A stretch of DNA of 64,000 bases from Halanaerobiales bacterium (GTDB lineage: Bacteria > Bacillota > Halanaerobiia > Halanaerobiales > Halanaerobiaceae). This document shows positions 7,533 through 54,935 of this stretch, piece after piece; the first letter of the stretch is position 1; each line of letters starts with the position of its first letter. The notes under the pieces were generated by a model that worked only from the letters and a program-made list of their open reading frames with translations, was not told the origin of the DNA and did no database searches. The translations under genes were made by a program, and so were the position numbers. Location of the stretch: NCBI GenBank assembly GCA_016278485.1, contig JADQBT010000010.1, positions 1 to 64,000 on the forward strand, read 5' to 3'.

Positions 7533-7652
7533 TCTCATTCCTCCCCAAAATTTTTAGTTGTTAGACGTCACATGTCTAGCAGACTCCGACAAAAAATATG
7601 ACAATATCTAGTTGCTAAATTATCTAAATATTGTCAGTCGTTCTAATTATTA

Positions 7653-18098: not shown

Positions 18099-18788
18099 TT
18101 ATAGCCTGTATTTGAAGTTAATCGCAAATTTTTTTCCAAATTTGTCGGTACTTGCAGAATTTAGAGTGTGAATCTGTTCATCATACTGTATTTTCGCCTC
18201 AATACTAAGCTTTTCTGTAAGGTCTCGCGACCAGTTTAAACTTATTCGGTTAGCATAATAATCTTTATCAGGTGAGTTTTGATAATTATTCCACTGTCTC
18301 TGAAGATAGAAAGTATAATCATTTAAATCATCTCTAGCAAAATCCAACTGATAAGCAATACGATAGACATGATATGATTTTTGAGGTGAAATAGCATAAT
18401 CTTTATCTTTTAAATGAAATTTAACCCTATTCCGCCACCTTTCACTACTATTAAAGGTATAATTACCATCTAAAGAAAGGGCCAGGCTGTCATAAATCTC
18501 TCTCACATCATAAACTCTGTTATAATATGTTCCTTTAAGCCAGAAATAATCATTATTGGCAAAGGTCTTTTTGTATCTAAGCCAGAGCCTGTCATAATTA
18601 AAAAAATCAACAAACTCTTCTTCCACTTCTTCGGCTGGATCCGTAAAAACTTTATCTCCTTTTTCAAAACTACCATTAATCTCTGCTTTTTCAGCTGCAG
18701 CAACGCTTACTGTGCCAATTAATATAATTGAGATAATTATCACAAACAATAGACAAAATAATACTGGTAAAGAAATTGATTTTTGCAT
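18099..18788 (-). CDS. putative outer-membrane beta-barrel protein
   Basis: About 229 residues. A signal peptide of roughly 33 residues ends VAAA. The mature part is a series of amphipathic strands rich in Tyr/Trp (YDRLWLRYKKTF, YFWLKGTYYNRVYD, YTFYLQRQWNNYQN) and ends NFKYRL. ATG at 18788 is preferred, with GGGTGA seven bases upstream; the longer start at 18815 has none. It lies between lptD and lpxA in an outer-membrane operon. Family not recognised; a small 8- to 10-stranded barrel is likely. Confidence 0.55.
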   Translation of the reverse strand: MQKSISLPVLFCLLFVIIISIILIGTVSVAAAEKAEINGSFEKGDKVFTDPAEEVEEEFVDFFNYDRLWLRYKKTFANNDYFWLKGTYYNRVYDVREIYDSLALSLDGNYTFNSSERWRNRVKFHLKDKDYAISPQKSYHVYRIAYQLDFARDDLNDYTFYLQRQWNNYQNSPDKDYYANRISLNWSRDLTEKLSIEAKIQYDEQIHTLNSASTDKFGKKFAINFKYRL

Positions 18789-18849
18789 GGAAAAATCACC
18801 CTTTTTTCTTTTCATTTCTTCACCAGTTAATAATTTCCTGCTTTTTTAT

Positions 18850-20499
18850 TTATAATTCGATACCAAAAGTCATTTTCTGCTCCTGGAACTCATAGCCAAC
18901 AAAGAAATTGAAACAGTCTTCAACTTTAGTAATTCTGGCGTTTATCTCATCCCAGTCTTCTGTCTTCAGATCATAATTGCCAGAAAAGTTTAGCTTAGTA
19001 TATGCATCTTTAAATTCACCTGGTAGTTTCAGTTCAAGATAAGGATTAAAAACTGTCTCTTCCTCTAATCTGTCGTCAACTAAGGGTGAACTATTTTCTA
19101 CAATATCTGTCCACCAGTTAAAGCCTGTTTTAAGATTCATCGCGGCTGGTAGAGCAAAATTATAACTACTGCCCAGTCTTACCTGCCCAGTCAAATAAGG
19201 TTTTTTGTAAGCCGGTAGATCATAATAATGGGCTGTTAAATGTTCATTTAGGTAAAAATCCCATTTCTCTGTCAACTGAAAACTATTATTCCAGTAAAGA
19301 TCAGCCTTGATTTTATCTGTTTTAACTCCACCATTTTTAACTTTACCTGTCCCCAGACTTGTCCTAACTCCATAAAGAGTAGGAAAACTCAAACTAAGGT
19401 AAGGTAGATATTCATAATCATAACCTGTCTGATAACGTAAATTTGCACCTACCGGACCAAACTTTCTACTAAAAACATATTTTTCATGATCAAGTTCTTC
19501 ATCAAGATAATCATGATATAAAGACACATTAGTATCTAAAAAACTACTACTATTAAAACCTATCTTTTCTCGCCTCTGTTCTGCTAAAAAATCATACCCC
19601 ACTGAAGTGTAGCTACTAAATAAAGGATGCTTATAATTAACTGTGAGAAGATATTCTTTAATCTCTTCTATTTCATCATCTTCACTTTCATCTACTGTAT
19701 AATTATAATGATATTCATTTTTAATATTCCAACGAGAGTTTAACTGATAAATATTATTTAATAAGATCTCTTCATCATCAGTTGAAGTAGACTTATAATA
19801 GAGCTTACCTGTACTTGCTGCTAACCGATAGTCATGATTAAATTCAACAAAAAAGCCTGATTGGTTATCATAACCCACATTTACTAATGGACTAGCAGAA
19901 TCTAGCTTTCCCTCTTCTGTATAATGCATGACCTGTCTTGGTAAATAAAAAATAGGAATACCCTTTACTCGAAAAGTAACATCTTTGGCCACTACTTTAT
20001 CGCCAGGATAGATTAATACTTCGCCTGCTTGATAATAATAGTGGGGATCTTCTCTTCGACAAGGAGTCATTATCGCTTTTTCAATCTCAAACTGATGCTC
20101 TGCATCTGCAACAATATTAATCTTACTACCACTAAAATTCATGCTATCAACAAGACTCTCTGCTCCATAAAGTGTACCAGTTCTAGCCTGATAGTTATAG
20201 ACCAGTGAACTACCAATAATTTTCTGATTATCAGTTAAAAGCACCACTTGGTCTCCTGTGGCGCGAACTAGATGCTGATCATAAAAGACATTGATCTCAG
20301 CTGATTTAACTGTTAAGTCAGTTGACTCAAAAACAACATTACCGATGCCATGAACAATCGACTTCTCATTTTCATAATGCAGTTCATCTCCCTGAAGTGA
20401 ATATTCAGGTAAAGCCGCATCAACTGTAAAAACAAAAGAAAAGATTAGGAGTAAGAATAATAGGTATTTAATTATTTGATTTATACTATATCTAGCCAT
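18850..20499 (-). CDS. lptD: LptD-like LPS assembly protein
   Basis: 549 residues. Signal peptide to about residue 29 (VDA). Residues 35-130 are an OstA/LptA-like jellyroll (GDELHYENEKSIVHGIGNVVFES, then VYDQ and LTDNQKIIGSSLVYN). Then comes the typical LptD link PHYYYQAGEVLIYPGDKVVAKDVTFRVKGIPIFYLPRQ, with one Cys in the MTPCRRED segment, and a C-terminal barrel. The family is shorter in Firmicutes than the 780-residue proteobacterial form. A second LptD domain exists in the fusion at 47383, so this genome has two LptD-type barrels. Confidence 0.8.
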   Translation of the reverse strand: MARYSINQIIKYLLFLLLIFSFVFTVDAALPEYSLQGDELHYENEKSIVHGIGNVVFESTDLTVKSAEINVFYDQHLVRATGDQVVLLTDNQKIIGSSLVYNYQARTGTLYGAESLVDSMNFSGSKINIVADAEHQFEIEKAIMTPCRREDPHYYYQAGEVLIYPGDKVVAKDVTFRVKGIPIFYLPRQVMHYTEEGKLDSASPLVNVGYDNQSGFFVEFNHDYRLAASTGKLYYKSTSTDDEEILLNNIYQLNSRWNIKNEYHYNYTVDESEDDEIEEIKEYLLTVNYKHPLFSSYTSVGYDFLAEQRREKIGFNSSSFLDTNVSLYHDYLDEELDHEKYVFSRKFGPVGANLRYQTGYDYEYLPYLSLSFPTLYGVRTSLGTGKVKNGGVKTDKIKADLYWNNSFQLTEKWDFYLNEHLTAHYYDLPAYKKPYLTGQVRLGSSYNFALPAAMNLKTGFNWWTDIVENSSPLVDDRLEEETVFNPYLELKLPGEFKDAYTKLNFSGNYDLKTEDWDEINARITKVEDCFNFFVGYEFQEQKMTFGIEL

Positions 20500-20509
20500 A
20501 ATATCCGCC

Positions 20510-21439
20510 TTAATTTATCTGTAATCCAACCACTTGTTTTTCTTCTGCTGTCTGTATGTATAGTTCTGAGCCAGCGGGAGTTTCTTTCTCTTTTCCTTCC
20601 ACAAAGTAACCAGCTACAATACCTGGTATACCAAGTACTACAGTACCGAGTAAACTAGCACCTATAGCAAGTTTTTTGGAAAGATTCTCTTCTTGAGCCT
20701 CTTCATTCAACTCTACTTTTAATTCACTACCATCAATAGTCATTAATGGCAAAAACTTTAGTTCCACTTGTGCATCTTCTCCCATCTTGCCTGCTTCTTG
20801 AATCTTACTAATTCGCATTTTACCCTCAGTCCCTGCAGGTAAAACAAGATGTGAATTGATGGTTAAATCATTAACTATCTCATAATCTATCAGTTCACCT
20901 AAACGTGAATGATCAGAACTGATCTCTTCTTTGAGTCTAATTCTTATCAATGTATCATCTTTGATTGTAACGGTTTCAGCAGGAAGATCTTCTCCACTTA
21001 AACTCATCTGATAGAGTTTTTTTATTCTACTATAGAGTGCACCTGTTTGTTTCTTACCAATAATGGATAATTCCAGTTCATCCAGGCGATTAACCATTGT
21101 TCCCTGTGATATTGTTCCAGTTAAAGACCAGTCAATACTATTTAATACAAACAATAAGGATGGCTTATCTTTTGTAATAAGCAGATCATTAATTATTTTA
21201 TTGGCTCGTTCTACGATAGAGCCTTTTAATTCTTCATTATAAATCAATTCTTCTAAGTTACTTATCCGTTGCATAATCGGTTTATCCTGTGCGGCACCCA
21301 TAACTAGTTTTTCTACCTCACCAATCCGCGCCATTGGTATAATTCCGGCTGCTCCAACCAATTGAAAAGAATTGATACTAACTAAACTTACTATTATAAG
21401 TAATACTACAGAAATTCTTACTGACTTATTCAATTTCAT
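20510..21439 (-). CDS. exported protein with VirB10/TrbI-like barrel domain, unidentified
   Basis: 309 residues. Signal peptide to about 30. The N-terminal half (35-160) is helical. The region 165-250 (IRIRLKEEISSDHSRLGELIDYEIVNDL, then LPAGTEGKMRISKIQEAGKMG) has the look of the 'RVRL..pvSS..a..Gd.v.f.v......g..viPaGt' domain seen in VirB10/TrbI-like and envelope proteins. A glycine-rich hydrophobic stretch (AIGASLLGTVVLGIPGIVAGYF) follows near 265. It is 10 bp upstream of lptD in the same operon. Function unknown; envelope location likely. Confidence 0.5.
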   Translation of the reverse strand: MKLNKSVRISVVLLIIVSLVSINSFQLVGAAGIIPMARIGEVEKLVMGAAQDKPIMQRISNLEELIYNEELKGSIVERANKIINDLLITKDKPSLLFVLNSIDWSLTGTISQGTMVNRLDELELSIIGKKQTGALYSRIKKLYQMSLSGEDLPAETVTIKDDTLIRIRLKEEISSDHSRLGELIDYEIVNDLTINSHLVLPAGTEGKMRISKIQEAGKMGEDAQVELKFLPLMTIDGSELKVELNEEAQEENLSKKLAIGASLLGTVVLGIPGIVAGYFVEGKEKETPAGSELYIQTAEEKQVVGLQIN

Positions 21440-21453
21440 TTCCCCTTCCCTAA

Positions 21454-22464
21454 TTAAAATTCGATTGCAAAGGATGCTTTAATATTTGACTCTTTTTTAT
21501 CATTTGAGCCAGCTGCTTCTTCAACTTCATAATCAAGATTAACTTTAGATGATTCATTTAGGCTTAAGCCAACACCAAAATTCCAGACTGCTTTCTCTGA
21601 AAGAAGGGTAGATTTAATCTCTTCCGGATCTAACAATTTATATGATGCGCTAAAGGTAGCAAGATCTTTAATATCAAATTCAAGCCCTGTACTCTGTTGT
21701 TTAACATCCTGACTATCATCTAACTGATAGATAGCTCTAATTACCCCGAGCTCATCTGTATAACTTACACCAAAAACAGTTGAATCACCTTTAATTTGAT
21801 CATCAATTTCATTGTTTTCAATAAAATCAGCTGAAACCGTTAGATGATCAGAAGTCTTATAGGAAATACCAAAACTCTTCTTTTTGTCTGTTTCACTATT
21901 AAAAGTTGGCTCTTCACTATTCACAGATAGATTATCGCTAGTAGATTGATTATTGCTATCATTATTTAATAGACTATTGTTATTCTTAATGTCAGAACTC
22001 TGCTCATTATTAGTTAGATCAGGTCTAGTGATCCCACTATCATCCCACCATTTTTTATTAGCCATTGTATAACCGGCTCGAAATAAGGTCCGGCTATTAA
22101 AGTCATATTCTAGTTGTAAATCTGTGACAGCATTTAATTTATCTTCACTCACTGTTTCATTATAATCTGCATTTAAGCGCAAATTATCATCAAGCAAAAC
22201 AGCTTCTTCACCTTCAACCGGCGTATCAAAATTTATGTTCAGTTGATTAAGACTATTTTCTGTATCCGATATAGTCGCATTATTATCAAATAGAGAGGCA
22301 ATACCAAGCAATTCTTCTTTAGCCTGATCAGAAAATTTATGTTCTTCTTCAGCAAGAGCAACTGCTTTTGCCTCCACCTTCTTTTGATCCTTATCAACTG
22401 CCAGAACTGAAGTAGAAAAAATTAATAAAAAAGATATAATAAAAATAAGTAATGATTTTTTCAA
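21454..22464 (-). CDS. putative outer-membrane porin-like barrel
   Basis: 336 residues. Signal peptide ends VLA near 22. A helical acidic stretch follows (about 25-70), then a barrel of alternating strands (LNADYNETV, LQLEYDFNSRTLFRAGYTM, KSFGISYKTSDHLTVSADFIE) with long N/S/D-rich loops, ending KASFAIEF with terminal Phe. It is the first gene of the run leading to lptD, lpxA, gnnA and gnnB. Acidic loops fit a halophile. Exact family unknown. Confidence 0.55.
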   Translation of the reverse strand: MKKSLLIFIISFLLIFSTSVLAVDKDQKKVEAKAVALAEEEHKFSDQAKEELLGIASLFDNNATISDTENSLNQLNINFDTPVEGEEAVLLDDNLRLNADYNETVSEDKLNAVTDLQLEYDFNSRTLFRAGYTMANKKWWDDSGITRPDLTNNEQSSDIKNNNSLLNNDSNNQSTSDNLSVNSEEPTFNSETDKKKSFGISYKTSDHLTVSADFIENNEIDDQIKGDSTVFGVSYTDELGVIRAIYQLDDSQDVKQQSTGLEFDIKDLATFSASYKLLDPEEIKSTLLSEKAVWNFGVGLSLNESSKVNLDYEVEEAAGSNDKKESNIKASFAIEF

Positions 22465-36345: not shown

Positions 36346-37449
36346 TTAATTTGCCTCAGACACCTTATAAAGCAGTGCCAGACCAGCAATTAAAATCACA
36401 ATATTTTGTAACCAGGCACCTAGCCAAGGAGCAATCGTGCCCTGACTGCCAAGTGCATCACCGACTGTCATTAAAGTATAATAAATAAAAATTACAATAA
36501 TACTTAAACCCAGCCCACCGGCCGAACCACCAGACCGCTGTGGTCTAATCCCAAGTGGCGCCGCTAATAATGCAAAAATAAAACTAGCCAGAGGAATCGA
36601 AAAGCGTTGATGCCACTTTACTTTTTCTGAATAAACGATTTTCCCTTGCTTTTCCTTCAAAGATATATATTCACTCAGTTCCCGAATATTCATATCTTCG
36701 ACCCTTTTTCCCAGTTTACCCATCTGGGAAGGCTGTTCAATATTTTCTACCGATCTATATTCATTAAATTTGAGAGCCGGTAACCTTTGACCAGCCTCCA
36801 TATAATAGACAACTCCATTATAAAAATGCCATTCATTATCAAACCATCGACCAGATTCAGCCTCAATCAGACTAATCGGTTTACCCTCTTCAAACTCCTG
36901 AATCACTACATAATCCATCGTACCTTCATCTGCTTCAAACTGATGTGTGTAGAGTATATAATCAGGCCGACGGTTAGACTCATCAAGTGGTGTAAGGTAA
37001 AGATTATACTGAGTATCAGGTTTCTTTTCCCCATGTTTAAACTTCCAGACAATCTGTTCATGTCTATAGTTAGCCTGTGGTACAATATATTCATTAATCC
37101 CGATTGTAACAACACTAGTTAAAAGTCCTATTACTAATGCTGGTACCACAATACTGTGAATACTAATACCACCACTCCGCATTGCCGTAATCTCACTATC
37201 ACTTGATAACCTATTAAAAGCCATAATCGTACCTAAAAGAGTTGCCATCGGAAAAGTTAAAACAATGATTTCAGGCAGACTCAAGAAAAATAGTTGGACT
37301 AAAGTCAGGGGATCAACACCCCAACGCGTATATAAATCTGTTAAATCAAAGATAAGATTTGTCCCTATAAAAATACCGGTAAAAGCAGCCACTCCAAAGA
37401 AAAAGGGAGCAATCAGCTCTCGGTATATGTATCTTCTAATAATTTTCAA
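36346..37449 (-). CDS. LptF/LptG family LPS export permease
   Basis: 367 residues. Three N-terminal membrane segments (RYIYRELIAPFFFGV start typical of the family, LTFPMATLLGTIMAFNRLSSDSEITAMRSGGIS coupling helix near 70-100), a periplasmic jellyroll (about 130-270) and three C-terminal segments, with PLASFIFALLAAPLGIRPQRSGG. With LptB (21 bp upstream) and a second permease it forms the complex that extracts LPS from the inner membrane. The partner permease is probably the N-terminal part of the fusion at 47383. Confidence 0.88.
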   Translation of the reverse strand: MKIIRRYIYRELIAPFFFGVAAFTGIFIGTNLIFDLTDLYTRWGVDPLTLVQLFFLSLPEIIVLTFPMATLLGTIMAFNRLSSDSEITAMRSGGISIHSIVVPALVIGLLTSVVTIGINEYIVPQANYRHEQIVWKFKHGEKKPDTQYNLYLTPLDESNRRPDYILYTHQFEADEGTMDYVVIQEFEEGKPISLIEAESGRWFDNEWHFYNGVVYYMEAGQRLPALKFNEYRSVENIEQPSQMGKLGKRVEDMNIRELSEYISLKEKQGKIVYSEKVKWHQRFSIPLASFIFALLAAPLGIRPQRSGGSAGGLGLSIIVIFIYYTLMTVGDALGSQGTIAPWLGAWLQNIVILIAGLALLYKVSEAN

Positions 37450-37469: not shown

Positions 37470-38189
37470 CTAGATCGTAAATTGTTCACCTAAATAAAAT
37501 TTACGGGCTAGCTCACTATTTGCTACCTCTTTGGAATTACCAGCCAGCAGAATCTCACCCTGGTGCATAATATATGCCCGGTCTGTAATAGAAAGAGTCT
37601 CCCGGACACTATGGTCAGTAATTAAAACACCCAGACCTCTTTCTTTCAGATAACGAATAATATCCTGGATATCACTGACTGCAATCGGGTCTACTCCAGC
37701 AAAAGGTTCATCAAGTAAGATAAACGACGGATCGGTCGCCAGTGAACGAGCAATCTCCACCCGGCGCCTTTCTCCTCCAGATAGTTGATAACCTTTTCTT
37801 TTGTTTAAATGTGAAATATGGAATTCTTCCAGCAACTCATTTAGCCGTCTGTTTTCCTCTTTTTTGGGACAAGCTTGATACTGGAGAATAGCTCTAATAT
37901 TATCTTCCACCGTCATTTTACGAAAAACTGATGCTTCCTGAGAAAGATAGCCAATTCCCCGCCTGGCTCTTTTATAGACCGGCAGTTCTGTAATCTGATC
38001 TTTATCTAAGCTAATCTCACCCGCATCAGGAGAAATAAGTCCTACGATCATATAGAAAGTGGTGGTTTTACCAGCTCCATTTGGACCGAGTAAACCAACT
38101 ATCTCTCCCCGTTTAACATCCAGGTCAACCTGATTAACTACCCGTTGTTTATTATATTCTTTGACCAGACCTCTTGCCTTAATTGTCAT
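37470..38189 (-). CDS. lptB: LPS export ATPase
   Basis: 239 residues from ATG at 38189 (GAGGAG seven bases upstream); the start lies 11 bp inside the end of lptA. Motifs: Walker [16 protein letters not shown]-loop [18 protein letters not shown] (the LptB-type 'ASVFRKLTVE'), signature [16 protein letters not shown] and Walker [17 protein letters not shown] with H-loop TDHSVRE. It powers the LptFG permeases. Confidence 0.95.
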
Positions 38190-38742
38190 CTTCAGTCTCC
38201 TCTTCTGGGAAGACAATTTTCGCCTGACCAGTAAGATCTACATTTTCTGTAGCCAGATTAAAAGTAGCTTTTTCAGCCTGGAAACGCTGTCCATTTCTAA
38301 TACCACTTGCATTACCTTCCAGCAAAATCAAATCTTTCGCAGCCAAATAAGTAATCTGCTCTGCCTGTGCATTTAAATTTTCGCCTGTAATGGTAGGTTC
38401 ACCACTAAAAACAAATTTCTCAGCATCTATATTACCTGTCATCTCTTGACCAGAAATCGTATAATTTTGATAAACAAGTTTTACATCCTGCTCAAAATTG
38501 AGATCACCAGTTTTCCGATTGATAAGACCACTGCCTTCAGCAGTTAAGACCAGATCATTATACAACAAGCGAACATTTGCTTTAGCAATTACTTTATAAT
38601 TATCCTCATCAAGTTTAACTAGCTGCAGACTATCTGCGGTTAGCTCCTGTACACCCTGAGCCAGAACCCCTGTCTGACCGATTAATACCAGCATCATAAC
38701 TAAAGCAATAAATATCTTTTTAAATCTTTTGCTATCTACCAT
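38179..38742 (-). CDS. lptA: LptA-like periplasmic LPS bridge protein
   Basis: 187 residues. Signal peptide ends VLA near 28. It is a series of OstA-type strands: [84 protein letters not shown]. LptA multimers carry LPS across the periplasm. It lies between lptC (2 bp gap) and lptB (11 bp overlap). A paralogue is coded at 46691. Confidence 0.85.
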
Positions 38743-38744
38743 TT

Positions 38745-39311
38745 TTATTCCTCCCAGACAAGTCTAGTCTTTTGCGCTTGATTGGTCTCAACTTTAAGTT
38801 CAATAAAATCAGGATCTGTCAAAAAAGAATCTCCTGTTAGAACCATTCTCGGCCCATCAATTTTAACCTCTTCGCGACCGCGAATAATCTCATTATCTAA
38901 CTGCCAGCCCAACCAGTTACAATAAATATTATAAAATTCCTGTTCAACTTGAACCGGCCCAAAAACTTCTAAATACCTCGCCTGGGCATCATATTTAGCT
39001 CTGCTACCCGTAAAAGTATAGGCCAACTGCTCTGTCTTAGTAGAAAAAACTTCTATATAGACTGGCGTTAGCTTAAATATATTTTTAGCAGCCGTCTGTA
39101 CTATTTTTTTTGAGCTAAGTTCCAAACGATAACTACGGTCCTTATTAAAGAGTGTCAATTTTGCTTCTTTAAATTCCTTAGCTGGTCTCTCTCCTTGCTC
39201 TGAGCCAACTTGATCTTGCTGCATTGGCTCTGTATTTTGCAAACTAAAAAAGATACCGGCAACAATGATTACAATCATACTTATTAATAAGAAAAGTTTT
39301 TTGCTGTTCAC
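38745..39311 (-). CDS. lptC: LptC-like membrane-anchored LPS transfer protein
   Basis: 188 residues. One N-terminal membrane anchor (about 5-25: LFLLISMIVIIVAGIFFSL) followed by an LptC/OstA jellyroll with KEAKLTLFNKDRSYRLELSSKKI and TGSRAKYDAQARYLEVFGPVQV. LptC receives LPS from LptFG and passes it to LptA. The gene order lptC-lptA-lptB with gaps under 3 bp or overlaps agrees. It is linked to lpxB upstream by 2 bp. Confidence 0.85.
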   Translation of the reverse strand: MNSKKLFLLISMIVIIVAGIFFSLQNTEPMQQDQVGSEQGERPAKEFKEAKLTLFNKDRSYRLELSSKKIVQTAAKNIFKLTPVYIEVFSTKTEQLAYTFTGSRAKYDAQARYLEVFGPVQVEQEFYNIYCNWLGWQLDNEIIRGREEVKIDGPRMVLTGDSFLTDPDFIELKVETNQAQKTRLVWEE

Positions 39312-42141: not shown

Positions 42142-42594
42142 CTATTCTTTATCTTCAAAGGCAAACATCAGCTCTGCTTCAGAAGCTAGTTTATCCTCAA
42201 CATAGGCATATGCCTTAACTTTGGCAATTCTACCTCTTAAACGCAAAACTTCTACTTTAATTACAAGCTGATCACCCGGAATAACCGGATGGCGGAATTT
42301 TGCTTTGTCAATCCCAGCAAAAAACGGCAGTTTATCTCCTGCATCATCAATACTATAAAACATCAGTATACCACCAACCTGAGCCATAGCTTCAATAATC
42401 AAAACACCTGGCATAATTGGATGTTCAGGATAATGGCCCTGAAAAAACTCCTCATTAATTGTTACATTTTTAATCCCAGTTATCTTTTTGCCTTCTTCCA
42501 TATCTTCAATTCTATCCACCAATAAAAGCGGATAACGGTGTGGCAAAATTTTTCTTATCTTATTAATATCTAACATTTCTTGCAGATCACTCAT
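42142..42594 (-). CDS. fabZ: 3-hydroxyacyl-ACP dehydratase
   Basis: 150 residues. The hotdog-fold active helix GHYPEHPIMPGVLIIEAMAQVGG carries the catalytic His (GHYPEHP) and the Glu in IEAMAQ. The start IRKILPHRYPLLLVDRI is typical. It competes with LpxA/LpxD for hydroxyacyl-ACP, and its gene is usually placed with them, as here (8 bp overlap with lpxC). The frame overlaps the end of lpxC, so translation may be coupled. Confidence 0.95.
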   Translation of the reverse strand: MSDLQEMLDINKIRKILPHRYPLLLVDRIEDMEEGKKITGIKNVTINEEFFQGHYPEHPIMPGVLIIEAMAQVGGILMFYSIDDAGDKLPFFAGIDKAKFRHPVIPGDQLVIKVEVLRLRGRIAKVKAYAYVEDKLASEAELMFAFEDKE

Positions 42595-43456
42595 TAAAAT
42601 TTACCTCCTGCATAATTTTTTCGCTAATCTTGCTGGCCAGTTCAACATGTAAGCTATGGCCTGACCGGACAGCTAATAGATGTCCCTTTATCTGACCATT
42701 TAATGCCATATCACCAATTAGATCAAGCACTTTATGGCGTACAAACTCATCTGGGTAGCGGAGTTCATTAACTGTTTTATGATCTCCTACCAGGACTGCA
42801 TTATCAAGATTTCCTCCCAGGGCCAGACCCCGGCTGTGCAGTTTTTCTACCTCTCTAGCAAAACCAAAGGTACGAGCACGGCCAACCGTCTCTATAAAGT
42901 TATCATCTTCCGTAAACTCAAAAAAACTGGTCCCAATCACCGGATGATCATAATCAAGTGTATAACTTACCCGAAATTTATCATCTGGCAAGATAGTAAG
43001 ATAGGCATTTCCTTTTCTGACATAGAGAGGTTCATCTACCTGATAGATAAACTTCTTGCCAGGTTGTTCAACAATACCTATCTCTTTAAATAAATTATAA
43101 AATATAAGTGCACTTCCATCTCCAACTGGTGTTTCTGCACCAGAAAGTTCTAGATAAAGATCATCTATCTCAAATGCCCAGATGGCTGACATCAGATGTT
43201 CAACTGTGCTTACTTTAATCTCAGCTTGGCCATTATTAATAAGGCCCAAGGCTGTACAACGGCGTGCAGCTACTACCTGACCAGGATTAACCTCTATCTC
43301 AGGTTGGTCAGCTAAATCTATTCTTTTAAAAATTATTCCTGTCCCCGGAGGAGCAGGAGCAACTTTCAACTTGACTTCCTTACCGGAGTGGAGGGCAATT
43401 CCCTCTAAAATTGCTCTGTCTGCAATTGTTTTTCTCTTCTCCATTTCAATAAGCAA
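42587..43456 (-). CDS. lpxC: UDP-3-O-acyl-N-acetylglucosamine deacetylase
   Basis: About 289 residues. It begins KRKTIADRAILEGIALHSGKEVKL as in LpxC. Zinc ligands: His in STVEHLMSA near 80, His and Asp in RHKVLDLIGDMAL near 240; the catalytic His lies in RSGHSLHVEL near 265. It catalyses the committed step of lipid A synthesis. Start choice: TTG at 43456 lies nine bases after AAGGAG; an ATG at 43465 touches the site and ATG at 43444 is a further option. Here it is a single-domain enzyme, not fused to FabZ as in some phyla. Confidence 0.95.
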   Translation of the reverse strand: MLIEMEKRKTIADRAILEGIALHSGKEVKLKVAPAPPGTGIIFKRIDLADQPEIEVNPGQVVAARRCTALGLINNGQAEIKVSTVEHLMSAIWAFEIDDLYLELSGAETPVGDGSALIFYNLFKEIGIVEQPGKKFIYQVDEPLYVRKGNAYLTILPDDKFRVSYTLDYDHPVIGTSFFEFTEDDNFIETVGRARTFGFAREVEKLHSRGLALGGNLDNAVLVGDHKTVNELRYPDEFVRHKVLDLIGDMALNGQIKGHLLAVRSGHSLHVELASKISEKIMQEVNFNE

Positions 43457-43519
43457 AAAACCCATCTCCTTACAGCTATGTCTTTCAATAGTTTATTATA
43501 TCCTGTTAAATGAGATAAT

Positions 43520-44254
43520 TCAACTATATTCAATAATATCTCTATATTTCTGCCCTATCCAGGATTCAGGTTGGGTAAATAGTCTCTCCGGTGGACCACT
43601 TTCAATAAATCTGCCTTGATCCATGAAATAAATCCTATCTGCCACTTTGCGTGCAAAAGCGATCTCATGTGTGACAATAATTAAAGAACGACTGCCATGA
43701 TCAGCTACTACTTTTTCCAGAACAGTCAGTACATCCCGGACCAGGATAGGATCTAAGGCTGCTGTTGGTTCATCCAATAATAATAAATCTGGTTCCATCA
43801 TCAGGGCTCGCGCAATCCCAATCCTCTGTTTTTCGCCCCCACTCATCCCTGTTACTGGCTCAGCATATCTACCAACCATACCCACATCAGCTAAGACTTT
43901 TTCTGCCTGTTGATATGCTTTTTCTTTGGAAAATCCAGCTTTAATTAGGCCTAAAGTAAGATTTTCACCTGCTGTCAGTCTTCTAATCAGATTAAAGTGT
44001 TGAAAAACAAAGCCCATCTTGCGGCGCACTTTGCGTAACTCTTCATTATTAAGTGCATGTACTGGTTGACCTTGAAAAATAATCTCACCAGCATTAGGCT
44101 CAACCAGTCTATTAATCAATCTAATAAAAGTTGATTTACCACAACCACTTGGCCCCATAATGGCTACTATCTCGCCTGGAGCCAGCTCAAAATCAAGTCC
44201 AGTTAATATTTCTTTTTCGCCATAGCTTTTTTTTAGATTTTTAATTGCTAACAT
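43520..44254 (-). CDS. ABC transporter ATPase of the LPS-cluster membrane system
   Basis: 244 residues with full ATPase motifs: Walker A GPSGCGKSTFIRLI, signature MSGGEKQRIGIARALM, Walker B DLLLLDEPTAALDPILV and TVTHE-like IIVTHEIAFARKVADRIYFMDQG. The sequence resembles polar-amino-acid (GlnQ) and lipoprotein/MacB-class ATPases, but no amino-acid permease or binding protein is near. The gene 16 bp upstream encodes a large coiled-coil membrane protein that is the likely partner. Placed between that gene and lpxC in the LPS operon, it may serve envelope lipid or protein export. Confidence 0.8.
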   Translation of the reverse strand: MLAIKNLKKSYGEKEILTGLDFELAPGEIVAIMGPSGCGKSTFIRLINRLVEPNAGEIIFQGQPVHALNNEELRKVRRKMGFVFQHFNLIRRLTAGENLTLGLIKAGFSKEKAYQQAEKVLADVGMVGRYAEPVTGMSGGEKQRIGIARALMMEPDLLLLDEPTAALDPILVRDVLTVLEKVVADHGSRSLIIVTHEIAFARKVADRIYFMDQGRFIESGPPERLFTQPESWIGQKYRDIIEYS

Positions 44255-44270
44255 AATATATCTTCCTCAT

Positions 44271-46610
44271 CTATTTGAAAGTTATTTTGGGTCGATTGAG
44301 CAGATAAAGCAAACCTGGTTTCCCAGCTGGGATCATAATTTCACTGATAATCTCACCTGTCGAAAGTCCCAGCGAAATGCCTGCTTCCCACTCTATTTTA
44401 GAGACCGGATTTAACATATTTGAAAGTAAAGCAGTTACCAGGCCAATTAATCCACCTAGCACAATATTTGTCCAGATATTCAGATAAGGGAAAGTTGTCC
44501 CACTTAAATAATAGATTAAACTAAAGAGCAAACCCCCAACAGTAATACCATAAAGATAGCCTTTTTTTCCTTTAAGGCGTAAGAGACTAACAATCAGACT
44601 CTGGTCTAACATCATCGTTAAAATGGTGAAAACAAATGTTAGAATAGCTGCAATCACTGCCCTTACCTGCCGAAGCAAATTAATTACTTCTCCTCTTGGA
44701 TCTGGTTGGAGAAATCCAGCTTCCATGTCAAGTAAACTGATACCTGGCTCAGCTAGATAACTCTTAATCTCTTTATTTAATTCTGTCTGATCATATTTAC
44801 CTTTAACCAGTAACTGAATCTGGTCACCAGGAATCACCTGCCCCAAGAGATAACTATCAATCAGTTCAATTGTTTCGATTAGTTCTTTGTTTTCCACATC
44901 AGGCAGTGCATCCTGAATAACGACTAACTGTTCAACTAACTGAGGCAAGCGATCACCTTGCAGTTCTTGCAATCCTGCCTGCAGTGGTTTTAACTGCTGA
45001 GCAAGTTCAGCTGGATTTATCTTTTCACTTAACTCTTGTAGGTCAGTTAGTTTTTCGAGAGAACCAGTCAACGCCTTCTCCTGGCTAAGTGATGCTTCTA
45101 ACTCACGCATAGAAACTATTTTTTCTTCCCAACTAGCTAAAGAAGTCTCAACGTTAAGATATTCATTCTCGCCGTTATTTAACATTTCATAACTTGAATC
45201 TAAGCGATTAGATAGCTGCAGAAATACATTTTGTAGTTCATTTAATTGACTGTAAAGCTCATTATTACGGGGTATAAAGACTAATTTACTACCAATCTCT
45301 CCTGCCGCTTGCCGTAGTTGATTACTATTTACAATCAAATTTTCCTGCACATTTTCTAAATCTCCAGTACTGGCTCTCACCTGACCAATCAATGCTTCCA
45401 TCTGATCTAGAAAACCAGCAATATCTTCTTCCTGCCAACGTTCTAATACATTATTTATCTCTGAACCTTCATCTTTTAAAACAGCTAAACCTTCATTTAG
45501 CTTAGTAAGGCCTGTTTCTAGTTCTGTAAAAAGACTGGCTAAACGGTTGCTTTCTTCTGAAAATTGCTCTAATTGGCCAGCCAGAGATTGCAGACCTTGC
45601 ATTGCTTCCTTTAATTCTCTGCGGGGAGCAATAACCTGACCTTCCGCTAATTCGACCAGACCAGATTGGCCTTTAAAAAAGATTGGTGTCTGCTCTGCAG
45701 TCAGTCTGCCTTTGACTATTAAAGCTGTAACTTCACCATTCTTGTTATCTAATATCTTTAACTCAATTTCACCTTCCGGACCAGCAAAAAGTTTTTCATC
45801 TAAATCCAAATAATGCCCTGCTGGCAGTTCAAAATAGACCCGATCAGCATAAGCTGTCAAAAAACCTTTCATCTGTTCTAAACTTGTCAACATTGTGACC
45901 CGATCTCCGCCCTCTTCCCGAGTAACATTCGCTACTTTGAGCGAATTATATTCTGCATTAATTAACTCCGTAATCTCCGTTGCTTTTTTTTGCAGTTCTC
46001 CTGGATGACTGTTAAGTGGATATCTGACTTCTAAGAGACGATAATTTGACAGTATCCTTTCTACATTCTCCTTAACTTCAGCCAACTTTTCAGGACTTGT
46101 TAAAACCAAGTCCATTCCATCACTTGTTTTATAACTAAATTTAATACCGGTTAGCTGATCAATTAATGGCTTAATTGTCTCCAGAGATTCACCCCGAAAA
46201 CCTCTTACAGACAGGCGTGGTTCAGTTATCACAGATTTACTTATCACACCTGGAATGTCGGCAAAATAATAACCCAGATTTGTAAAAACATCTGCGCGAT
46301 GATATTTTTTTGGTACCTTAAATAAGTAATTACTACTACCTGCTACAACTGGGCCCGCTTTTAAAGTTCCCCCGGGCAAATGATCTTCAGTAGCCTGTCT
46401 AATCTGTTCTAAGGCAAGATCTTCTTTATCACTCGCCAGCGTAAAAAGGAGATCATACTCACCATAATCACCTAAAACTCCACTTACAACTTCTGAAAAA
46501 TAATAATCGGCAGCATATCCCCCTGCTCTGACCAGAAAAGTTCCCAGTAAAATCGTAATCAGTAGCAAAACGAATAGCTGCCTTTTAAAATCGGAAAATA
46601 TTATTGACAT
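44271..46610 (-). CDS. large coiled-coil membrane protein, putative ABC permease of unknown type
   Basis: 779 residues from ATG at 46610 (GGGAGCGG upstream). One N-terminal membrane helix (about 10-30), a long extracytoplasmic part (30-640) with an ordered region (35-330) and extended coiled coils (330-560), then four hydrophobic segments (roughly 645-735: VIAAILTFVFTILTMML, YLYGITVGGLLFSLIYYL, NIWTNIVLGGLIGLVTALL) and a cytoplasmic tail. The 'one helix, big outside domain, C-terminal helices' layout recalls FtsX/MacB and YhgE/Pip-like proteins, but I recognise no family. The ATPase gene follows directly. Confidence 0.6.
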   Translation of the reverse strand: MSIIFSDFKRQLFVLLLITILLGTFLVRAGGYAADYYFSEVVSGVLGDYGEYDLLFTLASDKEDLALEQIRQATEDHLPGGTLKAGPVVAGSSNYLFKVPKKYHRADVFTNLGYYFADIPGVISKSVITEPRLSVRGFRGESLETIKPLIDQLTGIKFSYKTSDGMDLVLTSPEKLAEVKENVERILSNYRLLEVRYPLNSHPGELQKKATEITELINAEYNSLKVANVTREEGGDRVTMLTSLEQMKGFLTAYADRVYFELPAGHYLDLDEKLFAGPEGEIELKILDNKNGEVTALIVKGRLTAEQTPIFFKGQSGLVELAEGQVIAPRRELKEAMQGLQSLAGQLEQFSEESNRLASLFTELETGLTKLNEGLAVLKDEGSEINNVLERWQEEDIAGFLDQMEALIGQVRASTGDLENVQENLIVNSNQLRQAAGEIGSKLVFIPRNNELYSQLNELQNVFLQLSNRLDSSYEMLNNGENEYLNVETSLASWEEKIVSMRELEASLSQEKALTGSLEKLTDLQELSEKINPAELAQQLKPLQAGLQELQGDRLPQLVEQLVVIQDALPDVENKELIETIELIDSYLLGQVIPGDQIQLLVKGKYDQTELNKEIKSYLAEPGISLLDMEAGFLQPDPRGEVINLLRQVRAVIAAILTFVFTILTMMLDQSLIVSLLRLKGKKGYLYGITVGGLLFSLIYYLSGTTFPYLNIWTNIVLGGLIGLVTALLSNMLNPVSKIEWEAGISLGLSTGEIISEIMIPAGKPGLLYLLNRPKITFK

Positions 46611-46690
46611 CTCTATCCGCTCCCATTCTGTTATAATTATACCATTCAATGGAAGCAACGTAAATGTCTGTAAATCGGTAATTTGTGGTA

Positions 46691-47320
46691 TTATTCCTCA
46701 TCATTCAACGTTATTTCGATCTCCACCGGACCTTCTGCTGTAAAATGTTCTTCTTCACTGGCCAGATCGAAAACGGCCCGTTCACTTTTGATCCAGTCCC
46801 CGTTCTCTTCTTCTATCAAAACATTCTTAGTCAAAACTAATTCTTCTGTCTCTCCATTATAATCAGCCTGTTCTGATTTAAGTAGCCTCTCTTGATAATC
46901 AATGACTACTCCTTCTTTTGCCTGAAAAGAGTCTGTCTTAGCAAAAAGTTCCAGCATAGCTGACTTGAGAATAAATGTCTGGTCAGCTTCTTCATTTTCT
47001 TTACGATAATTCATCACTACCTGTTGGCGAAAAAGATAACGGTCTTCCGCAAACCAGGCTGTCATCTCTTTACCCTCAATTGTACCGGTATTAGCTTCCA
47101 TAATCACACCACCCTGGAGCAGTGCCTTTTTCTCTTCCCGCCAATATTCTCCCCGCGGTGCATTGACAACTGTCTCTTCTTTGCTGACTGTTACCCCCTG
47201 GCTAACCTTAATACTCTCTTCCTGATAATCTAAAAATCCTGCTTGTAGCCGGAGTTGGGCCTGCACAGGTGTTGCAATTAGGCTTAACAGAAAAAAACAG
47301 ATTAGTATTTTTTTGCCCAT
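46691..47320 (-). CDS. LptA-like periplasmic protein, second copy
   Basis: 209 residues. Signal peptide ends VQA near 21. OstA-type repeats: LDYQEESIKVSQGVTVSKEETVVNAPRGEYW, ALLQGGVIMEANTGTIEGKEMTAWF, QAKEGVVIDYQERLLKSEQADYN, LVLTKNVLIEEENGDWIKSERAVFDL. It is coded between the LptF-LptD fusion and the coiled-coil membrane protein, so it may bridge to that LptD. It is clearly divergent from the LptA at 38179. Confidence 0.75.
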   Translation of the reverse strand: MGKKILICFFLLSLIATPVQAQLRLQAGFLDYQEESIKVSQGVTVSKEETVVNAPRGEYWREEKKALLQGGVIMEANTGTIEGKEMTAWFAEDRYLFRQQVVMNYRKENEEADQTFILKSAMLELFAKTDSFQAKEGVVIDYQERLLKSEQADYNGETEELVLTKNVLIEEENGDWIKSERAVFDLASEEEHFTAEGPVEIEITLNDEE

Positions 47321-47382: not shown

Positions 47383-50300
47383 CTAGTTATTTAATAATTC
47401 TTCCAGACCCAGGTCAAACATAAAATCTCCACTATCATCCTGTCCAAAGGAAACTCCTTGATCTGGGAATATGTTGAGATGATATTCAACTGTATATTCC
47501 TGTTCCAGATGATCATAAGTAAACCAGAGTTGTCGGCAGTGAAAGTTCTTCTTCAAAATTAAATCCGCCCGGTCAAACTCTCCCGCTAAGTGATCATAGC
47601 GGGTACTGAATTCAAAATACCATTCTTCTTTTAAGTCATAGATAATCCGATTATCAACTCTCTCTAACTGCATCTGGTTGAGATCATAACGGAGCGCAGA
47701 TTTTATCTCAACTGCCTGGCGTGCAAAATTGCTAGTTATAATTAAATCATCAAAACGACTATTATTAAGATCATAACCGGTTGCCAGGCCCACTCCCCAA
47801 TCCGGATTAACCTTCCAATTGGCCAGCATATTAACTGGTAGGTAAAGCTGATTGTAAATATCGTAACCCCCACTTAAGCGCATATTTAAAGAACCCCGAC
47901 GGTAACGTAGACTACTCTGATATTCTTCTTCTGTATCTTCTGCATCAAAACGAAAAGGGGTTCTGCCAAAAGGTAGATTCATCTGATATGTATTAGTCCA
48001 GATTAACCCATTCCCATAGTTGGCCCGGAGTCTGTATTCTGATTGATAGTTAAGTAAAAAATCTTCTAAATCTAACTGATTAGCTGCCTGCTCACTATCA
48101 GCCACAATCCGATAATAGGCTGCATCACCATATTGGGTCATATTAAAACTATAGATATCATTTAAACGCCAGTATTTATCATATTCAATTTCTTGTTTAA
48201 AGCGGTAACCCTCTTTAGCAGAAGCTGATTCATAATAATAGCCTGGTGTGACTCGATACCTAAACTCAGACGTTGGTTGAATCTCATATTGAATCTCCGG
48301 CCAGCGATAAAACTGTACCTGATTTTCTTCAGTATCAGCTTCAAAACTAGGATCATATCTTTCTAGTAAAATCTTCAGCGAACGCCTGCTGCCTTGCCAA
48401 CGCAGATAACTCTCTGTACCCCAGCGGGTTCTGCGTTCTGCAGTAGGATTATCAATAATATCATGGTTTAAAGCAAGGTCTAACTCCCAATCCTGCGCAA
48501 TTTCTAAGTTATAGTCAAAATCAAACTCTAACTCCTGATCATCTCGGTAATCATCACTGAGATAATCTTGCTCTGAATAAGCGGAATTCAAAGTTAGCCG
48601 TTGTTTATCTCCCCGATAATCGATATCTAGCTTAGCATCTGCCTGGTAATATCTATCATAATCTGTATATAAAAGGTTGGTATCAGTCTGCCAATTACCT
48701 TTTTGATCAGCATAATCAAACTCAGCCTGCCAGTTAAAAAGCCCATAAAGATCGGTCCGATTTTCCTGAGTTAAATATTTAAGAAAAACTTTCTGATCGC
48801 TTTGATGGAGCAGATACTGTTTAAAACCTCCCGCAAAACCAGAAATAGTATAATAATCAAGATAAAGCTTACCTGGTAGTGAACGTGTCAGACGATAGTC
48901 ATAATCTAGTTTTAGAAACCAGCCTCGCTGACCATGATAACCTACTTCTGGGACTAGGCCTTGTTCTGCATCATCTAAAGAAATATATAGGACTGGCCAA
49001 TAAAAAAGCGGTAACTTCCCACCTAACTCCCAGAAGACAACATGCTTGGCTATTAGATAATCTCCGGGATAGATGGTCACTTCACTTGAACGAAAAAAAT
49101 AGTGTTGGTCTTCATAATCACAGCCACTCAGGTCATTTCTGCCTAACTCAATCTCTTTTACATCTGCTAGGAGTTTCTCACTACCATTAGCCATTATTAT
49201 AACAGCTCTTTCGGTCTGCAAATGGAGATCCCGATATTTACCTATAATATTATTTTTTAGTTCAATTTTATTCTCACCTGCAAAATATTCAACTTGATCT
49301 GCTTTTATATTTAACTTATCTTCTGCTACTGCATTACTCTCTGTAGCAAAAGCAAAGCTATAGGTTGTTAAAATCACTCCTGTAAGTAAAATAATAGCTA
49401 GTGAACCACCTAAAAGCCGACTCACTAATTTATTTAAATAATGCTGCCATTTTTCTCTAAAAACAAGTAGAGTCAAGCCGATCACCGCAAAAATTAGATG
49501 GGGCAGCCAAGCTGCCAATAATGGTGACAACATGCCATTTCTGCCTAAGGAACGGGATAATGAGATCAATAGATAATATAAAAATATGATGGCAATTGTA
49601 AAGATAATATTCAAAATACGACTCTCATTTTTACCCAGACTCAGGGGTGTCCCTAGTAAAATAAAGATCAAAGGTGTCAATGAGGTAGCAAGTTTAAGGT
49701 GATAATCGACCAGCAGAGAACTGACATCTATCCCACTTTTAGCAAATAAGGCTATCTCTTTCTTTAATTCAGCCCGATTCATCTCAGCAGTAGTCTTTTG
49801 TTCACCAAAAAACTTAGTCGTATCTTCTGTGATCTCTATCTGCATTTTAGCAAAACGACTTTCCATATCCAACTGGCCTGCCTGGTTATAGCGATGAATG
49901 ACACCATCTTTTAAAAGCCAGTTATTCTGGTTGATTTCAGCGCGTTGGGCAGTAATTACCTCAGGAAACTCGTCTCTATTTTTCCTTACATTATAGATCA
50001 TAATTTTTTCTAATTCAGCCTCTTCTTCATTAAATGATTCTACATAAAAAATACGGCCATCTGGCCCAGTAAAAAAGACATCTTCTTTTACTTCTGGCAT
50101 TACTTCTTTTAAAATATTAAGCCGAATAATATTACGGGCTTGGTGATTAGACCAGGGAACCACTCTTTCATTTAAGATAAATGTCATTCCACTAATTATT
50201 AAACCGATCACAATCAGGGGCATAAAAAGTCTGTAAAGACTAACTCCTCCCATCCGCAGTGCTGTAAACTCATTCTCTTGACTGAGTCTACCTAGTCCAG

Positions 50301-50541
50301 TCATAATTGCAAAAAGGATAGCAATGGGAAAGGTTTCTACAACCAACTCGGGTAATTGAAATAAAAGGAGGCGACCCACATCAGCCAGCGGCACATCTTT
50401 CACAATTAACAGATCTGTTAATTGAAATAAAAAACTGCTCAGCATAATGATCGTCACAATAATCACACCAGTCAGAAAAGGCTGTATTACTTCTCTTATT
50501 AAATATATATCTATAATCTTGCCTTTCCAGTCTAGCTTCAT
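47383..50541 (-). CDS. LptF-LptD fusion: inner-membrane permease joined to outer-membrane LPS translocon
   Basis: 1052 residues in one uninterrupted frame. Residues 1-365 are a complete LptF/G permease: three helices, coupling helix GLGRLSQENEFTALRMGGVS (about 82-101), periplasmic jellyroll, three more helices. Residues 371-399 form a signal-peptide-like segment: basic KLVSR, a 19-residue hydrophobic core, then SFAFA before TESN, a good signal peptidase site. Residues 405-500 are an OstA jellyroll, followed by HYFFRSSEVTIYPGDYLIAKHVVFW and an LptD barrel to the end. The domain joint is near 49344. Cleavage would yield both proteins from one mRNA; without cleavage one chain would span the envelope. 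Confidence 0.85.
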   Translation of the reverse strand: MKLDWKGKIIDIYLIREVIQPFLTGVIIVTIIMLSSFLFQLTDLLIVKDVPLADVGRLLLFQLPELVVETFPIAILFAIMTGLGRLSQENEFTALRMGGVSLYRLFMPLIVIGLIISGMTFILNERVVPWSNHQARNIIRLNILKEVMPEVKEDVFFTGPDGRIFYVESFNEEEAELEKIMIYNVRKNRDEFPEVITAQRAEINQNNWLLKDGVIHRYNQAGQLDMESRFAKMQIEITEDTTKFFGEQKTTAEMNRAELKKEIALFAKSGIDVSSLLVDYHLKLATSLTPLIFILLGTPLSLGKNESRILNIIFTIAIIFLYYLLISLSRSLGRNGMLSPLLAAWLPHLIFAVIGLTLLVFREKWQHYLNKLVSRLLGGSLAIILLTGVILTTYSFAFATESNAVAEDKLNIKADQVEYFAGENKIELKNNIIGKYRDLHLQTERAVIIMANGSEKLLADVKEIELGRNDLSGCDYEDQHYFFRSSEVTIYPGDYLIAKHVVFWELGGKLPLFYWPVLYISLDDAEQGLVPEVGYHGQRGWFLKLDYDYRLTRSLPGKLYLDYYTISGFAGGFKQYLLHQSDQKVFLKYLTQENRTDLYGLFNWQAEFDYADQKGNWQTDTNLLYTDYDRYYQADAKLDIDYRGDKQRLTLNSAYSEQDYLSDDYRDDQELEFDFDYNLEIAQDWELDLALNHDIIDNPTAERRTRWGTESYLRWQGSRRSLKILLERYDPSFEADTEENQVQFYRWPEIQYEIQPTSEFRYRVTPGYYYESASAKEGYRFKQEIEYDKYWRLNDIYSFNMTQYGDAAYYRIVADSEQAANQLDLEDFLLNYQSEYRLRANYGNGLIWTNTYQMNLPFGRTPFRFDAEDTEEEYQSSLRYRRGSLNMRLSGGYDIYNQLYLPVNMLANWKVNPDWGVGLATGYDLNNSRFDDLIITSNFARQAVEIKSALRYDLNQMQLERVDNRIIYDLKEEWYFEFSTRYDHLAGEFDRADLILKKNFHCRQLWFTYDHLEQEYTVEYHLNIFPDQGVSFGQDDSGDFMFDLGLEELLNN

Positions 50542-53585: not shown

Positions 53586-54935
53586 TTAATTAGTTTTTTT
53601 CCAGATTAATAAAATAAAGTCAGTCTGACCATTACTCTCTGTCTTTTTATATAGATTTTTTAAATGAGTTTTTAAAGTATTATATGATATACATAATTTA
53701 TCAGTTATTTCTTTTGTTTTATAGCCAGCTAATAATAGATTAGCTACTTCCTGCTCTCTTTCGGTTAAGCTGAATTCTTGATAGATTTCTTCTCTTCCTT
53801 GTTTGATATTATTAGTTTGCTTCGGATACAAAGGAAAGGTATCTTTTAAAAATATTAATATAGGGATAATTAACATGATAAAAACAATACCTAGCAAAGG
53901 AATATAATTATTGGCAATTAAACTGTCTACCTGATTGCCTAAAAATGGCCAACTGGAAATAAAGACTGCTATCACATTGATAGCTAAGCCAATACCAATA
54001 ATTTTTTTGCTACGAAAAAAATTTGACCAGTCAATCAAAGTTAGAAAGATATAGAGATCCATGACAGCAAAAGCACTCTGTAGTAAACCCAGCGATAAAC
54101 TTTGCAGCAAACTATTATCTGATAATAATAGTAATAAAAATCCGATGCCAGAAAAACTAAGACCAAAGTTAATTAAATATAATCTACCCTTTTTATCAGC
54201 CATGCTGCCGGCCGGGATTACTGTAAGTAGATAAAAAATGAAACCAAGATCAAAATAATTATCTTCAGAAGCTAATATATCCCCATAACTGAGGCTATAC
54301 ATTAGGCCACCCCCAGCGTAAAATAAAACTAACAATATTATTAAGGCAAACCAATATGATCTTTTAAAATTAGCTAAATCTATTTCAGGTACTTCTACTT
54401 TTTTAATAAAAATACTTTTCTCTAATGTTAACGGTATAAATAAAAAAGAACCTGTTAAAATATACATCCATTCTGCTGCTGAAACAAACATAAAAATTAA
54501 AGAGAGGGCACTAGCTAGAAAAAATATTAAGCCCAATATTCGACCCCGATAGTTGTACCATGCTTTACCACCTAAATGATATAAGTAATTAATAACTAAT
54601 GGACCTGATATCAGACCAATTAGGGCCATCAATGGCAGAAAAAAAGAATTTGCTAGATAAGGAAATATAATTGTTAAAATACCAAGTATAATTGAAGAAT
54701 ATTTTATAAATTGCCTTGCATTACATTTTAATATTTGCTTTATTTTTTCAGCATAAAATGCATAAATGAAAAGTCCAAAAGCATGACTAATTAAAAAAGA
54801 CAGAAATAATTGCTGATAATCAATATCTAATAATCCATATAAAGGTCCAAACATTGGAAATGACCACAACCAGGTAGTAAAAAATACCATAGATAAAGTG
54901 ATCGGATGCCAATATTTTTTTATGCTAGCTATCAT
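53586..54935 (-). CDS. membrane-embedded LuxR-type regulator (MFS-like part plus HTH)
   Basis: 449 residues. About 12 hydrophobic segments fill residues 10-375, with an MFS-type loop (AGSMADKKGRLYLINFG, residues about 243-260) between halves. The C-terminal 70 residues are a GerE/LuxR HTH: LTEREQEVANLLLAGYKTKEITDKLCISYNTLKTHLKNLYKKT. It may be a transporter-like sensor that binds DNA from the membrane, in the manner known for some MFS-LuxR proteins of Eggerthella and relatives. No clear target; the gene stands alone, upstream coiled-coil genes being separated by a terminator. Confidence 0.8.
   Translation of the reverse strand: MIASIKKYWHPITLSMVFFTTWLWSFPMFGPLYGLLDIDYQQLFLSFLISHAFGLFIYAFYAEKIKQILKCNARQFIKYSSIILGILTIIFPYLANSFFLPLMALIGLISGPLVINYLYHLGGKAWYNYRGRILGLIFFLASALSLIFMFVSAAEWMYILTGSFLFIPLTLEKSIFIKKVEVPEIDLANFKRSYWFALIILLVLFYAGGGLMYSLSYGDILASEDNYFDLGFIFYLLTVIPAGSMADKKGRLYLINFGLSFSGIGFLLLLLSDNSLLQSLSLGLLQSAFAVMDLYIFLTLIDWSNFFRSKKIIGIGLAINVIAVFISSWPFLGNQVDSLIANNYIPLLGIVFIMLIIPILIFLKDTFPLYPKQTNNIKQGREEIYQEFSLTEREQEVANLLLAGYKTKEITDKLCISYNTLKTHLKNLYKKTESNGQTDFILLIWKKTN

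Follow-up and report, generated by a model that had tools for sequence, protein, structure and literature searches.

A fused LptF-LptD gene of Halanaerobiales predicted to encode a two-product polyprotein with an internal signal peptide

The window analyzed here, 64,000 nucleotides of a Halanaerobiales bacterium (positions 1 to 64,000 of contig JADQBT010000010.1, assembly GCA_016278485.1), contains a single open reading frame that encodes an LptF permease followed by an LptD barrel and that heads a run of Lpt and lipid A genes. The features at the locus, and elsewhere in the window, are:

47383-50541, minus strand: LptF-LptD fusion open reading frame, ATG at 50541, 1052 aa, no internal stops (0)
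49462..50541, minus strand: LptF permease half (residues 1-360), six TM helices and a periplasmic jelly-roll by PF03739 and AlphaFold2 topology
49345..49458, minus strand: joint (residues 362-399), a basic segment, a hydrophobic core, and a predicted signal peptidase I site, A-F-A, after residue 399
47386..49344, minus strand: predicted mature LptD (residues 400-1052), OstA-type N-terminal jelly-roll and 26-strand beta barrel by AlphaFold2, Foldseek, and VIA-align
46691..47320, minus strand: LptA2, an LptA/LptC-like periplasmic protein, directly downstream of the fusion (PF03968 and PF06835)
44271..46658, minus strand: 795-aa membrane protein with a long coiled coil and no Pfam family, in the same gene run
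43520..44254, minus strand: ABC ATPase (PF00005), beside the 795-aa protein
42587..43465, minus strand: LpxC, first of the lipid A block (FabZ, LpxA, LpxI, and LpxB next)
38745..39311, minus strand: LptC (PF06835)
38179..38742, minus strand: LptA (PF03968)
37470..38216, minus strand: LptB-type ATPase (PF00005), between lptA and lptG, a position conserved in relatives
36346..37449, minus strand: stand-alone LptF/G-type permease, called LptG (PF03739, E=1.5e-99)
18850..20499, minus strand: LptD2, a second, shorter, stand-alone LptD-like protein of 549 aa, found with the family profile

The minus-strand run headed by the fusion continues through LptA2, the 795-aa protein, the ABC ATPase, lpxC, fabZ, lpxA, lpxI, lpxB, lptC, lptA, lptB, and lptG, and this gene order is shared by relatives, among them G017, G019, G028, and G035. 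On the opposite side of the fusion lie genes for LpxD, an Omp85 protein, and TamB. A promoter scan 5' of position 50541 yielded weak matches only, and no LptE was recognized among the annotations. The permease at 36346, which forms part of a separate 100/100 clade in the LptF/G tree, is the likely partner of the LptF half; this gene and the shorter LptD-like gene at 18850, both of which had been described beforehand as standing alone, do so. The 795-aa protein pairs with the ABC ATPase and is kept beside the fusion in many relatives. Farther away, positions 53586-54935 encode a transporter-like protein with many TM helices and a C-terminal LuxR-type helix-turn-helix (PF00196), and positions 4002-7538 encode a protein of 1178 aa in which 5'-nucleotidase C-terminal and metallophosphatase stretches each occur twice and which also matches PGA_cap and, weakly, SLH.

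The preliminary description had placed an inner-membrane LptF permease and an LptD barrel in one frame, and this assignment is upheld for both halves, by a Pfam match for the first and by a fold match for the second. Residues 13-359 match PF03739 (LptF_LptG) over profile positions 2-351 of 353 with E=2.4e-93 and a score of 313.4 bits against a curated cut-off of 27.9, which places them in the LptF/LptG family. The NCBIfam equivalog cut-offs are not reached (180.5 of 230 for LptF and 196.9 of 240 for LptG), and the choice of LptF over LptG as a name therefore is made solely by contrast with the permease at 36346. In the LptB-coupling region, R85, L86, E91, A94, G98, G99, and S101 are invariant. 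A full-length AlphaFold2 model of modest confidence (pLDDT 66) comprises the six TM helices of LptF, one further, seventh helix (residues 362-393) predicted with low confidence, and then LptD.

For the LptD half, Pfam and NCBIfam provide nothing usable, and its identification therefore rests on structure and on the family profile. Residues 396-1052 of the window protein have no Pfam match; LptD_N is detected in 3 of 20 orthologues, with a best E of 0.0078, and in the window protein neither LptD_N nor LptD is detected; and a phmmer search against PDB sequences gave no match. An AlphaFold2 model of this half, made from 20 orthologues (pLDDT 75), is all beta, with a jelly-roll followed by 26 barrel strands (model residues 188 to 627). 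In a Foldseek search of the PDB with this model, ranks 1-37 are all LptD, with a best E of 6.9e-16. VIA-align gives a best Z of 15.6, for Shigella LptD, over about 440 aligned residues; unrelated barrels come near, at Z 14.9, so that the assignment is carried by the Foldseek ranking and by the jelly-roll. We conclude from the model that the C-terminal half is LptD, its predicted 26-strand barrel and jelly-roll matching the fold of solved LptD structures.

The joint between the halves had been described as a basic start, a hydrophobic core, and AFA before TES near position 49344, an arrangement resembling a cleavable signal peptide. The positions are as described, AFA being residues 397-399 and T400 beginning at base 49344, and the signal-like character is above chance in all 21 fused orthologues examined. 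With the site scored by a simple motif, [AVSTGLI]-x-A no more than 16 residues from the hydrophobic core, and with controls that were picked after the sequences were seen, the motif is present in 21/21 fused orthologues, compared with 24/123 LptF TM helices and 615/4200 random segments (Fisher p=4e-13 for joints versus LptF TM helices, a p-value that serves as a guide only, the sequences being related). Alanine at position -1 in 21/21 joints follows by construction and is not counted as evidence. In all 21 joints the hydrophobic core is preceded by net positive charge and followed by a site of the form V/A/G/S/T-x-A, whose alanine lies 20-28 residues past the last basic residue. The joint is the least conserved part of the 21 proteins, with 23% identity as against 61% on the LptF side and 48% on the LptD side, and the site motif persists in every one of them despite this divergence, although in one (L004) the site is less clear. 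A conserved basic-hydrophobic-AxA signal, such as a cleaved polyprotein would carry, thus separates the two products in the full set. The distance from the site to the first LptD strand is 1-11 residues (median 1), which cannot span the periplasm as a transenvelope spacer of the MlaD kind would. The hydrophobic core is long enough for a seventh TM helix. One signal peptidase I gene was found.

Had relatives all carried two separate genes, the fusion would have been in doubt; a search of other Halanaerobiales recovered it repeatedly. Using A2, a family profile that spans the joint, we detect the uninterrupted fusion, with no stops, in 22 of the 59 class genomes, including the single-contig chromosomes G004 and G017. 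There are complete chromosomes among the carriers, one of them that of H. orenii, and named carriers include Halanaerobium kushneri, H. saccharolyticum, Fuchsiella alkaliacetigena, Candidatus Frackibacter, and a Halothermothrix MAG. Among 149 genomes drawn from the phylum, the only matches were in two genomes of the class. In a scan of 84,980 species, which reaches close relatives only, full-length fused matches occurred only in Halanaerobiales-type genomes; Halobacteroidaceae MAGs had the two genes adjacent, and the remaining matches were LptF pieces or, in one case, an LptD piece. Because the fusion is seen in more than a third of the class genomes and nowhere else in the phylum sample or the species-wide scan, we conclude that it is a real, vertically kept gene.

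The separate genes of relatives show how the fusion and its joint arose. In the outgroup family f10, lptF and lptD are neighbours: in G040 and G047 the two share a reading frame and have TAG GAG GAG TAG ATT or a near copy between them, with an AGGAGG that lies inside this spacer and overlaps the lptF stop; in G045 they overlap by four bases. The LptD of f10 opens with an ordinary, textbook signal peptide (for example VRRIALGIGIIILIFSFSTQA/A, the slash marking its end), and the unfused LptDs G014 (SSAFS/Q) and G020 (ALA/Q) likewise start with signal peptides. Since these LptDs all bear N-terminal signal peptides, the joint of the fused proteins is the tail of LptF plus the signal peptide that LptD retained. 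In the LptD tree the fused proteins lie in a 100/100 clade, within which the unfused G014 and G020 occupy well-supported inner branches, and the LptF tree places every fused row within a 98/95 clade in which several unfused rows are nested. The simplest reading of these trees is one fusion of adjacent in-frame genes followed by fissions, a history that argues against an obligatory two-membrane chain. A Frackibacter LptF paralogue ends just past the hydrophobic segment of the joint, and this end is likely a fission scar. In family f8, stand-alone LptF genes (L146, L156, L157, and L158) lie far from LPS genes, with no adjoining LptD found; near two of them (L146 and L158) is a signal peptidase I-like gene.

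We consider it highly probable that the fusion encodes a two-product polyprotein of the Lpt pathway, in which the joint is the old signal peptide of LptD and is the predicted site of a signal peptidase I cut. Bacteria seldom use signal peptidase to cut behind a polytopic domain. In the proposed sequence of events, LptF would insert in vivo through six TM helices, leaving its C-terminus in the cytoplasm; the joint would then act as an internal Sec signal, with its basic side in, its core across the membrane, and A-F-A outside; signal peptidase I would cut after A399; the inner membrane would keep LptF with a short hydrophobic tail; and mature LptD, from T400, would be released to the Bam machine and pass to the outer membrane. 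LptF would work with the LptB and LptG encoded downstream, and LptD would receive its presumed substrate, LPS, via LptA-type proteins, among them LptA2, which is co-transmitted. Cleavage would yield the two products in equal amounts. This cut is favoured because the motif is kept, no spacer is present, fission has occurred repeatedly with no apparent harm, and no internal start is conserved, and signal peptidase I is, judging from the sequence of the joint, most likely the enzyme that makes it.

The distribution of the neighbouring genes bears on the partner of LptF. LptA2 has a strong match in 40/40 class genomes with a fusion-type LptD and is absent in 15/19 without one; in the 4 genomes with LptA2 but without a fusion-type LptD, a separate LptF is present. 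Fusion-type LptD and LptA2 are both absent in 15 of 59 genomes, of which 12 are also without a detected LptF gene, and the three module-less genomes that were inspected (G001, G025, and G029) retain the genes for lipid A together with lptC, lptA, lptB, and lptG, with LptD2 matches remaining in G001 and G025. The pattern is therefore that of an accessory module, possibly a second route, made up of LptD, LptA2, and usually LptF. Genomes missing both the fusion and LptA2 include G001, G002, G003, G005, G006, G008, G010, G011, G025, and G029, several of them Halanaerobium-like. As for LptD2, the LptD-core part of the family profile matches positions 19798-20106 (E=2.4e-16), and there are matches in most class genomes. 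Its gene lies in a conserved block of four with 18099-18815, 20510-21439, and 21454-22464, a block retained as well by species that lost the fusion; the order of the block resembles that of the Negativicutes lptD locus (Vpar_0645-0647), of which it may be the counterpart.

These patterns give some weight to a different pairing, in which the fused LptF homodimerizes in a second machine (LptF, LptD, and LptA2) that operates beside LptB, LptG, LptA, LptC, and LptD2. The loss of LptD and LptA2, mostly with LptF, from genomes that where inspected keep LptG, LptB, and the lipid A genes is in keeping with it, as are the presence of two LptDs per genome and the occurrence, in family f11, of two LptF-type permeases in tandem before lptD. 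Two things speak against it: apart from a generic ABC ATPase there is no second LptB beside the fusion, and the lipid A and lptCABG block of this window follows directly downstream of the fusion, on one strand with it. We regard homodimerization as a tentative possibility, somewhat doubtful as matters stand; it concerns only the partner of LptF and is compatible with cleavage. In L149-L152 (f11), the tandem permease genes stand directly 5' of lptD, making a full permease pair in the second locus. A more elaborate proposal, in which a second, dispensable LPS or glycolipid route has both of its membrane ends in one polyprotein and some chains stay uncut as a transient assembly bridge, seems to us improbable.

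It is likewise unlikely that LptD is also made alone from an internal start just 5' of the signal peptide in the joint, such that co-translation would not be obligatory. The separate genes of the outgroup do have a strong ribosome-binding site at that place, and some fused genes have an in-frame TTG, GTG, or ATG near the joint; however, an in-frame start codon is missing at the joint in 4 of the 21 fused genes, and none of the 21 combines a strong ribosome-binding site with a conserved position. An internal translation start, for want of a conserved start with a ribosome-binding site, was rejected.

The preliminary description had also allowed two fates for the chain, cleavage into equal amounts of both proteins or an uncut chain tying both membranes. 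Cleavage is favoured by the site being kept in every fused orthologue, by its alignment with the signal peptide of unfused LptD, and by the nested split genes; the uncut chain found no support. Such a chain, with LptF tied via a seventh TM helix to outer-membrane LptD in a covalent two-membrane bridge, could draw on the membrane-spanning length of the hydrophobic core and on the report of MlaD of Veillonella, also a diderm Firmicute, as a single-chain inner- and outer-membrane protein (PMC10665443). However, the short stretch from site to fold would leave the jelly-roll pinned against the inner membrane, all 21 joints retain the cleavage motif, the genes for LptA and LptC are kept, and the two genes are apart in lineages inside the fused clade, so a tether is dispensable. 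On linker length, motif conservation, and fissions, we consider the uncut tether very unlikely. A sequencing or assembly artefact (a lost stop or frameshift) can be rejected with near certainty, for although relatives do have adjacent in-frame lptF and lptD genes, the fusion is present in each of 22 independent assemblies, including two single-contig chromosomes.

Antunes et al. 2016 reported no LptD or LptE, and a single LptF/G, in Negativicutes or Halanaerobiales (PMC5007114). Atypical diderms are still said to be without lptD in a survey of 2022 (PMC8871954). LptD of Veillonella parvula (Vpar_0647) was seen in the outer membrane by proteomics after the 2016 survey (PMC5491611), and the H. 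orenii genome paper gives lipid A genes, in passages that do not name LptD (PMC2626281). We found no report of an LptF-LptD fusion in the open-access literature. The fusion supplies an LptD for Halanaerobiales, and one place in which LptD was hidden is behind an LptF/LptG label, where annotation could pass it over, which would account for its reported absence. If our reading is correct, an inner-membrane transporter and an outer-membrane barrel are produced here from one chain in a fixed ratio, something rarely seen in bacteria. The presence of fused and split genes within one clade makes the need for LptF-LptD coupling testable, and the co-existence of two LptDs, of which one goes with LptF and LptA2 and disappears together with them, is relevant to the loss or simplification of the outer membrane in diderm Firmicutes.

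With LptF and LptG of the E. coli LptB2FGC permease, the LptF half shares a full-length PF03739 match, six TM helices, a jelly-roll, and a conserved LptB-coupling region, but here the C-terminus runs on into LptD. With LptD of E. coli and other Proteobacteria, the second half shares the 26-strand barrel and jelly-roll; it differs in its identity of about 10-12%, in having no Pfam LptD match, and in being made as the C-terminal half of LptF. The arrangement of a polytopic membrane protein, an internal signal peptide, and an exported protein, with a cut by signal peptidase, is known from fbcH, the cytochrome b-c1 polyprotein of Bradyrhizobium japonicum; both fbcH products stay in one inner-membrane complex, whereas the second product of the fusion would travel on to the outer membrane. 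Vpar_0647 of V. parvula is likewise the LptD of a diderm Firmicute, but it is a stand-alone gene by Vpar_0645 and Vpar_0646, and its context would seem to resemble that of LptD2 at 18850 rather than that of the fusion. V. parvula MlaD, finally, likewise combines an inner-membrane anchor and an outer-membrane barrel in one gene (PMC10665443), but in MlaD a long helical spacer is present and the protein acts without being cut, whereas the fusion described here has no spacer and carries a conserved cleavage motif.
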